From positions 1 through 50,329 of the forward strand of contig CAMIWC010000008.1 of the NCBI GenBank assembly GCA_946402315.1: a DNA stretch of 50,329 nt, in the 5' to 3' direction. The notes beneath the pieces are model-generated. The model was not told where the DNA came from. It did no database searches and saw only the letters and a program-made list of their open reading frames with translations. This document shows positions 16,192-40,929 of this stretch, piece by piece. Position 1 is the stretch's first letter. Every line of letters starts with the position of its first letter. The DNA comes from an uncultured Clostridium sp. GTDB taxonomy: Bacteria; Bacillota_I; Bacilli_A; RF39; UBA660. The translations under genes were made by a program, and so were the position numbers.

Positions 16192-16390
16192 TAGTAATTG
16201 CTGACTGGAAGTAGTAGTAATAATATACTTATAGAGAACTAGTGCTTGGTGGAAACTAGTAGTTAAAAATTATGAACTTGTCTGGTTATTAAGTAAATCG
16301 TTATACGCGTTAAGTATTTAAGATAGATAATTCTATGAATTAAGGTGGTACCGCGATATATTCGCCCTTATAGGTATCATCTTTTTTTAT
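16192..16390 (+). promoter_or_regulatory. T-box riboswitch, predicted leucine-specific
   Basis: A tRNA-sensing leader. Stem I is marked by AGAGA (16233-16237) and a distal hairpin closed by ACTAGT/ACTAGT around GGTGGAA. The sequence GAA-CTT-G at 16274-16280 offers CTT (16277-16279) as a leucine specifier codon. The hallmark T-box AAGGTGGTACCGCG is at 16342-16355; its TGGT can pair with the ACCA end of uncharged tRNA-Leu. The competing terminator pairs AAGGTGGTACC with GGTATCATCTT around GCGA/TCGC, then seven Ts to 16388. When leucyl-tRNA is charged, transcription should stop before the membrane gene and leuS. The specifier assignment is inference from alignment by eye plus the downstream leuS. 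Confidence 0.93.
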
Positions 16391-39109: not shown

Positions 39110-39137
39110 AAATCAAGTGCTAAACTTGATTTTTTTA
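39110..39137 (+). terminator. ffh terminator; 3' arm contains the next -35
   Basis: Stem AAATCAAG/CTTGATTT with a 7-nt loop and T-run. TTGATT at 39126-39131 lies within the 3' arm. Confidence 0.85.
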
Positions 39138-39154
39138 TGTATTTATGTTATAAT
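39126..39154 (+). promoter_or_regulatory. Promoter of the OLE-like RNA
   Basis: TTGATT (39126-39131), 17 nt, TATAAT (39149-39154), predicting a start near 39161. The -35 is part of the ffh terminator stem. Confidence 0.8.
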
Positions 39155-39160
39155 TTACTC

Positions 39161-39742
39161 ATGTAATGGCACATTATCCTAGTCAATACATTATTATGAA
39201 GACGAGCCTAAAAATTCGTTAAAGAGCACATCGTTGAAGCGTTTGGTGTTTGCTTTGGGCGCCCAGCTTGGGGTGAATGCTGGATTGAAGAATTTATGGA
39301 CGATCGTAACGGCATACGGCAACCGTTCCATTTATTCGTTGAGACCTAATCTTGTGGATGTAGATGAACCTATATGGCAATGTCTATGAATTGGGATTAA
39401 ACCTATTTGTGGTGAAAGCTATGAATAGTGTAGCTTGACTTGCGTGGTGTTTGGGGATTGAGACAACTAAGTAATTAAGTCGACATAATTACTTTGTATC
39501 GCTACATGAAACATACATTGCAAAAAAGTCTAATAATAAAACGTATTGGTGAGGAAAACTCCTAGGGTGTTGTTAATATGAGTTTATAGTATGCTCTAAG
39601 TGGTAATCAAGTCGTAGATAGGGAGACCTACTACTCGCGTCAGTAAAGAGGAATCGCTATACTGGTAACGGTACAGTTGATACGGGGGAAATCCAACTTG
39701 ACCTAAGGTATAAGGTTAATCATGTTAATAGCCATTTTTTTT
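39161..39742 (+). ncRNA. ole: Large structured RNA, candidate OLE RNA
   Basis: About 580 nt with no long ORF and base composition much richer in G than the flanking genes. Visible helices include AATGGC/GCCATT joining the two ends (39165-39170 with 39731-39736), CCAGC/GCTGG (39263-39283), AACGG/CCGTT (39309-39327), AAGCTA/TAGCTT (39416-39436) and a 9-bp AAGTAATTA/TAATTACTT (39469-39494). A U8 tract closes the RNA. OLE RNAs are ~600-nt membrane-associated RNAs whose genes directly precede oapA, and the next gene here is an OapA-like four-TM protein. ROOL or GOLLD RNAs are of similar size but do not share this gene partner. tmRNA, RNase P and SRP hallmarks are absent. Identity rests on synteny, length and recalled family knowledge. 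Confidence 0.78.
39714..39742 (+). terminator. 3' end hairpin and U-tract of the OLE-like RNA
   Basis: GGTTA/TAGCC can form a hairpin (39714-39733) directly before eight Ts; the same GCC can instead pair with the RNA's 5' end. It may be leaky, allowing readthrough into the oapA-like gene. Confidence 0.55.
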
Positions 39743-39766
39743 ATTGTTTAAAAAAGGAGTCTTTTT

Positions 39767-40312
39767 ATGAAAAAGAAAAATAGTAAAAAGAAAATTTTTG
39801 ATTATAGATGGGTGTTCACAGTAACATTCCTTGCTTTTTTTATTTCTGTAATATTTTCTAGTATTTCAGAAGTTATTATGCCTAATGCTTATCTATGGGT
39901 AAGTATTATTTTAATCTTAGTATTTATTTATCTAGGAGTAATCTTTGATATGATTGGAGTAGCTTCTACATCTGCGGATACATCAGTATTCCATGCGATG
40001 AGTGCTAGAGGAGTTAAGAGTGGTAGAGTTGCTATTAAATTAATTAATAACTCTGCTAAAGTATCTAGTATTTGTTGTGATGTTATTGGAGATATTTGTG
40101 GTATTATTAGTGGTTCTTGTGCTGCTACTATATCTATTGCTTTAATAAATCAATTACAAGTACAAGGATTCTTTATATCTGTAATTATTACTTCTTTAAC
40201 CGCAGCTTTAACTATAGGTGGTAAAGCTTTAGGTAAAGGTTATGCAGTTAATAAAGCAAATACTATTATTGAAAGATTTGCAAAAATTTTATATCCATTT
40301 ATGGGTAGATAA
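39767..40312 (+). CDS. oapA: OapA-like OLE-associated membrane protein
   Basis: 181 aa, basic N-terminus (KKKNSKKK) then four hydrophobic helices (about 17-38, 45-66, 105-128, 132-153). Conserved-looking polar stretches are DMIGVASTSADTSVFHAMSA, RVAIKLINNSAKVSS and DVIGDICGIISGS. I associate these with OapA and proteins often annotated as CorB/CNNM fragments. OapA binds OLE RNA and holds it at the membrane; OLE/OapA mutants in Bacillus halodurans are affected in cold, ethanol and Mg2+ tolerance (literature). AAAAGGAG precedes the ATG, 25 nt after the RNA's U-tract. The many basic residues fit an RNA-binding membrane protein. Confidence 0.8.
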   Translation: MKKKNSKKKIFDYRWVFTVTFLAFFISVIFSSISEVIMPNAYLWVSIILILVFIYLGVIFDMIGVASTSADTSVFHAMSARGVKSGRVAIKLINNSAKVSSICCDVIGDICGIISGSCAATISIALINQLQVQGFFISVIITSLTAALTIGGKALGKGYAVNKANTIIERFAKILYPFMGR

Positions 40313-40359: not shown

Positions 40360-40929
40360 ATGAAAAGAGTAATTATTATTTTAATAACAATCGTTATTAT
40401 TGGTTTAGGTATAGGTGGTACATTTTTAACTATTAAAGTTGAAAATGAAAGAAAAGCTGATAAAGAATTTAAAGAAACTATTAATAATGATTACATAGCA
40501 TTTAAAAAGGCTGTAGAAGAGTTCTCTACAGAAAGAACTAATGTCTATGATGCTCTTTCTAAAATAGATTATCTTGAGTCCATTCCTGGATTATATGAAG
40601 AATTAATTGGCACATATAAGAAATATGAAGAAAAATTAGATAATGTTATTAAAACAGGGGATATTTTAAAAGAAAAATTACTTGAAAAAGACTTTAGAAA
40701 TAAAGATTTATCTAATAAAAAAGAAGCTTATATTACTAATTACGAAGAAACATATAATTACTTTGTTAGTGATGTTAAAAAATTAAATTCTCAATTAGAT
40801 TTATATAATGTTATGGCAGAAGCAGATACATCTAATAGTTTTAAGAAACTAGATTTATATGAATCTAAATATAAAGAATTAATCGATGTAAATGAAGACG
40901 GTATATATAGTGGAATTGATCCAGAATAG
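40360..40929 (+). CDS. Membrane-anchored coiled-coil protein, unknown
   Basis: 189 aa: one N-terminal TM helix (about 4-25) followed by a Lys/Glu-rich helical region with several heptad stretches (FKETINNDYIAFKKAVEEF, YKKYEEKLDNVIKTGDILKEK) and an acidic end (DVNEDGIYSGIDPE). No family recognised. The frame is open from GTG 40351, but that GTG belongs to the ribosome binding site AGAAGGTGA of ATG 40360. No terminator separates it from the OapA-like gene 47 nt upstream, and the NAGPA gene starts 10 nt downstream, so the three may share a transcript. Confidence 0.7.
   Translation: MKRVIIILITIVIIGLGIGGTFLTIKVENERKADKEFKETINNDYIAFKKAVEEFSTERTNVYDALSKIDYLESIPGLYEELIGTYKKYEEKLDNVIKTGDILKEKLLEKDFRNKDLSNKKEAYITNYEETYNYFVSDVKKLNSQLDLYNVMAEADTSNSFKKLDLYESKYKELIDVNEDGIYSGIDPE

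Follow-up and report, generated by a model that had tools for sequence, protein, structure and literature searches.

The window, as we call the whole 50,329-nucleotide stretch analysed here, contains an ole–oapA locus in which a genuine OLE RNA adjoins the gene of its partner OapA, and we hold with high confidence that its lineage makes a reduced membrane OLE ribonucleoprotein built on OapA, operating without OapB and OapC and with bS21 as a possible second partner. The initial annotation implied that OLE RNA in a host-associated non-extremophile was a surprise; the RNA is there, but the find itself is not new, because OLE RNAs have been reported from RF39 and TANB77, two gut clades of uncultured bacteria in which OapB and OapC are largely missing (Fernando and Breaker 2024, PMC11332333). 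The locus adds one more member to the known OLE RNAs, and its lineage is most likely the very same clade (RF39) as in that study.

The ole–oapA locus

When the window was compared with 4227 Rfam families, the OLE model (RF01071) scored 365.4 bits (E 7.2e-104; gathering cut-off 50 bits) over model positions 1–616 without truncation, and no ROOL, GOLLD or other large-RNA model scored in the same interval, in agreement with the initial annotation, which had proposed an OLE RNA from the sequence alone and had named a rival large-RNA match in place of OLE as one observation that would count against it. The sole other Rfam match in the window is an ordinary T-box leader (16198–16372, + strand, 95.3 bits). 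The ole transcript is expected to run from about 39161 to 39742 (~580 nt), and the complementary ends (ATGGC/GCCAT) and U8 terminus attributed to it are present (Table 1), the terminal helix (helix 1) being paired in 77% of cells of the family alignment. The proposed promoter, TTGATT-17-TATAAT, is likewise present and is the best sigma-70-like site of the ole region (10/12 matches), but it is plausible rather than proven because promoter-like sites in the region are no denser than in shuffled sequence (9 versus 8.6). As read from the sequence, ffh is followed by a terminator-like hairpin (AAATCAAGT/ACTTGATTT, then a T run), and the -35 element of the promoter overlaps its 3' arm.

Table 1. Features of the ole–oapA locus, in window coordinates.
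Feature	Position	Strand	Basis
Likely ole promoter, TTGATT-17-TATAAT, TG before -10	39126..39154	+	10/12 matches
OLE RNA	39150..39751	+	RF01071 match; covariation in relatives
Terminal helix, 5' arm, AUGGC	39166..39170	+	helix 1
J4a/5, k-turn 5' strand, CGUUGAAG; C85 to G92 by B. halodurans numbering	39232..39239	+	direct extraction
J5/6, 3' strand of k-turn 1a, AUUGAAG; GUNA core absent	39284..39290	+	direct extraction
J6/7, GAG, strand of alternative k-turn 1b, retained	39341..39343	+	direct extraction
Terminal helix, 3' arm, GCCAU (39731-39735), running into U8 (39735-39742)	39731..39742	+	sequence, helix 1
Shine-Dalgarno of oapA, AAGGAG	39754..39759	+	sequence
oapA, OLE-associated protein A, 181 aa, CNNM-type + DxxxD (residues 105-109) + extra N-terminal TM helix	39767..40312	+	homology, motif, fold
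Small membrane-anchored protein, adjoins oapA in genus	40360..40929	+	same position in L003, L008, L014, L017, L025, L106

The oapA gene starts 24 nt past the U8 run (25 had been estimated; the lengths and the count of transmembrane helices were also right within a few bases) and encodes a protein of 181 residues that is basic, as predicted, with a pI of 9.76. It matches Pfam CNNM with 30.9 bits (cut-off 28.4), and its AlphaFold model (mean pLDDT 92.7) has four transmembrane helices in a CNNM-like fold: residues 42–178 superimpose on archaeal CorB (MtCorB, 7m1t) with Z 14.4 and 2.2 A over 129 residues (Foldseek E 2e-3, probability 1.00), while helix 13–37 is predicted to be an additional N-terminal helix ahead of this CNNM part. 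The protein thus shares the CNNM-type membrane fold of the MpfA/CorB Mg transporters (CNNM + CBS + CorC_HlyC) and differs from them in consisting of the CNNM-type part only, with neither the CBS pair nor a CorC_HlyC domain by Pfam and model, and in having the extra N-terminal helix and a DxxxD motif, here D105-V-I-G-D109. In an alignment of 50 members, D105 and D109 are invariant together with D61, G64, C103, V106, G108, S115, G116, K153 and K157. These features match the published description of OapA as a four-transmembrane CNNM relative with DxxxD (PMC11332333), a motif absent from CNNM domains.

Homology gives the same answer. At least 80 OLE loci were pulled from public genomes by a conserved RNA pattern, as examples rather than a census; among the matches listed, 72 of 80 carry an oapA homologue, nearly always just downstream, and five of the eight without one end no more than 300 bases from the RNA. 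Such homologues adjoin OLE in Bacillaceae, Paenibacillaceae, Alkaliphilus and Alicyclobacillus. A profile built from the homologues at OLE loci has matches that form one family, with D[VIL]xGD in 104 of 106 sequences, the other two being cut at locus ends. The 181-residue protein, flagged at the outset as an OapA-like partner, is OapA.

Upstream of ole lie ftsY, ylxM, a HerA-like ATPase gene and ffh; the genes after oapA encode a membrane-anchored protein of 189 aa and then a phosphodiester glycosidase. The ffh surroundings, noted early on as unusual, are shared by only one other locus among the matches listed, from the same genus. The membrane-anchored protein is diverse in sequence though its position behind oapA is kept in the genus and in L106, and it might be functionally linked to OLE.

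Among the public records, the OLE of Pusillibacter faecalis pMM59_01 (NZ_AP023421.1, L245 4298-5534; 399.8 bits) is followed by oapA and then dxs, tlyA, nadK, argR and recN; this 504-kb record is labelled a conjugative plasmid, yet its gene cluster is chromosome-like, and the plasmid label or the assembly may be wrong. A phage-borne OapA was considered and rejected: MT835614.1 (L246 1-9000) is entered as 'Bacteriophage sp.' but is a scaffold of a bacterial chromosome, with the order xseA-oapA-tlyA-nadK-argR-recN and a spoIVB-like gene, and its OapA-like gene has no OLE match beside it. Loci of Clostridium senegalense and two MAGs (L093, L075 and L127) have OLE with no OapA within 5.9, 2.8 and 3.5 kb downstream, respectively. 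One MAG labelled Actinomycetota (L079) carries OLE with OapA, probably through transfer or contamination, an explanation that the literature offers for matches of this kind.

Distribution and partner genes

Among 97 relatives, OLE is confined to the window's family, where 38 of 58 genomes have it, and none of the 39 others of the class does; in a set of 392 genomes from across the phylum it again occurs only in this family. Within the family 36 genomes have both OLE and OapA, two have OLE only, none has OapA only and 20 have neither (Fisher p 1e-13). In one of the two exceptions (G026) OLE lies at a contig end; the other (G042, 93% complete) has a full OLE of 359 bits (L203 8077-8679, - strand) with no OapA detected beside it or genome-wide, and is possibly an exception to the OLE–OapA rule or an assembly gap. 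A second, diverged OLE copy in G033 (L206 7956-8424) runs off a contig end, and a full OLE–OapA pair is present elsewhere in that genome. In the OapA tree one supported clade (98/87) unites the family with MAGs mostly named 'uncultured Bacilli bacterium', several of which have goat or rumen in their sample names; Bacillaceae, Paenibacillaceae and Clostridia fall outside it. The family shares its class with genomes that seemingly read TGA as sense.

Searches for OapB and OapC elsewhere in the genome, suggested by the initial annotation, were carried out on the relatives, and the family lacks both; these absences rest on the relatives, the source genome (962 kb in 15 contigs) being 74% complete. 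The Pfam KOW model is a poor detector of OapB (1/7 OLE genomes), so we searched with a Halobacillus protein that corresponds to OapB of the PDB (7k9b, E 4e-30) and included positive controls. This query was positive in all 14 named genomes with OLE, at identities as low as 27%, and found OapB (YbzG) in none of the 97 relatives. The gene order agrees: Halobacillus has oapB between map and infA, whereas these two genes overlap or abut in three family members; in a fourth, infA directly follows adk. OapC (YbxF), and with it every L7Ae-family protein, is missing from all 36 family genomes searched, the source genome included. Outside the family, 36 of 38 OLE genomes encode an L7Ae-family protein, most of them two, as do 21 of 23 other class members. 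The source genome has a bS21 gene, and so do 34 of 36 genomes of the family. These contrasts lie between clades, and small p-values attached to them do not count independent events.

MpfA, recognised by its CorC_HlyC domain, is found in none of the 58 family members, which have no CorC_HlyC protein at all, and in 32 of the 39 other class members. The notion that MpfA substitutes for a lost OLE fails within the family because its 20 OLE-free members lack MpfA too.

Binding sites and structural selection in the RNA

In Halalkalibacterium halodurans the OapC-bound k-turn 1a consists of J4a/5 with J5/6 (PMC9723947), and cryo-EM describes a k-turn 1b of J4a/5 with J6/7 (PMC12286853, PMC12054373). 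Reading the family at these positions, whose names are inferred from H. halodurans numbering (PMC9723947) and at which the family's short variants are not readable, we find that 53 of 54 sequences from outside have CGAUGAAG as J4a/5, and that the family mostly has CUGUGAAA or CUAUGAAG/A there but retains C85, G89 and A90. The GUNA core of J5/6, present in 51/51 sequences outside the family, occurs in 1/33 inside it, while the GAG of J6/7 is kept in 38/40 outside and 31/33 family sequences. A simple loss of k-turn 1a was toned down: MAFFT columns had misplaced J5/6, and direct extraction showed that 22/33 family sequences, the window's included, still have an A-G step where A143-G144 would lie. 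To judge from these sequences, the lineage has lost part of one RNA binding site, the J5/6 core of the OapC-linked k-turn.

The retained C85, G89 and A90 and the A-G step of these 22 sequences would also fit an OapC-like k-turn switch that is still in use, another protein having replaced YbxF and J5/6 having drifted within the tolerance of a k-turn; we consider this unlikely, if worth keeping in mind, as the A-G step is missing at that place in the other 11, the GUNA core has all but gone and the family genomes hold no L7Ae-family protein. Tentatively, and with slightly more doubt than belief, we propose instead that a minimal RF39-type OLE particle of RNA, OapA and perhaps bS21 may work without OapB and OapC, with k-turn 1a given up and 1b kept.

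The literature on variants had led us to expect that P13 would lack its OapB site, but the P13 region is largely kept, and the sequence AAAGGGGAACCGC occurs in many family members as well as in 10 non-family OLE RNAs. That this site persists though oapB is gone shows that the conservation of a site is not in itself a guide to the proteins bound there. In P6, two G-C pairs (columns 159-191 and 160-190) are invariant in the alignment of 31 family sequences and may correspond to the bS21 determinants.

Missing partner genes, loss of J5/6 conservation, the absence of OLE from 20 of the 58 family members and the short or broken copies in G043 and, as the second copy, in G033 are what one would expect if the RNA were a decaying remnant that no longer works in a reduced genome. 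The family RNA is nevertheless under structural selection. In an alignment of 31 OLE RNAs, all of the window's family, we scored the base pairs of the Rfam structure as projected by the match in the window itself, together with the five-pair terminal helix. Standard pairs fill 86.4% of cells versus 72.9% in column shuffles and ~38-44% in slid controls, and double-sided compensatory changes occur in 114 of 160 helix pairs, a number reached in 0/500 shuffles; helix 11, at the tip of a long arm, is poorly aligned and its pairs are unsupported. Moreover, 193 alignment columns are conserved to at least 95% among 59 OLE RNAs from outside the family, and in 54 sequences of the family 136 of these columns remain conserved to at least 90%; several of the remaining columns are compensatory, for example C39307-G39316 to U-A. 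The oapA reading frames, too, are intact in family members, and against the compensatory changes, the kept columns and these frames a remnant is very improbable. That the RNA is a different large RNA (ROOL, GOLLD or raiA-type) or an OLE-like mRNA leader of oapA is next to inconceivable, for its leader-like position directly upstream of a gene is outweighed by the full-length match of OLE as sole scorer in the region and by its own promoter-like site and U run before oapA.

A proposed reduced OLE particle

Compared with the OLE systems of H. halodurans and Clostridium acetobutylicum, the window shares the full-length RNA match, the conserved loops and helices, and an oapA directly downstream whose product has DxxxD and the CNNM-type fold; it differs in its A/U-rich helices, its changed J4a/5 bulge and J5/6 core, and its position behind ffh rather than in an isoprenoid/argR/recN cluster, and the family differs from the H. 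halodurans-type particle in the lack of OapB and OapC. With the RF39/TANB77 variants (PMC11332333) it has in common a reduced gut genome, OLE with OapA, and missing OapB and OapC. The window RNA is longer than 'variant 2', which is described as common in RF39 and as without P7 and P8 (PMC11332333), and its P13 OapB-site region is present; the score classes of that study rest on another model than the one used here. Four details are additions made here, not found in the accessible texts: the abutting map and infA genes, the different fates of J5/6 and J6/7, the kept P13 site, and the lack of MpfA in relatives that have no OLE.

In the reduced particle that we favour, the ~580-nt RNA adopts the OLE architecture and OapA, as a CNNM-type protein, would anchor it at the membrane, possibly as a dimer, with the still-encoded bS21 possibly bound at P6 and with the two chaperone-like partners, OapB and OapC, absent. 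The OLE complex of H. halodurans, which depends on OapA, OapB and OapC, helps cells to grow under stress from cold, alcohol, Mg2+ or carbon source (PMC12054373, PMC9723947). By analogy, we suggest that the particle may help against cold, alcohols, excess divalent metal and poor carbon sources, and that OapA may transport divalent metals in a way governed by the OLE RNA; of OapA, OapB and OapC, only OapA could be required in this family.

Twenty years after the discovery of OLE, genomes of ~1 Mb that keep OLE and OapA without OapB, OapC and MpfA narrow what its core biochemical function needs, and the lineage offers a natural comparison for structural work on OLE. Finally, if the minimal particle with k-turn 1b only is real, this clade would separate the core function of OLE from partner-dependent switching.
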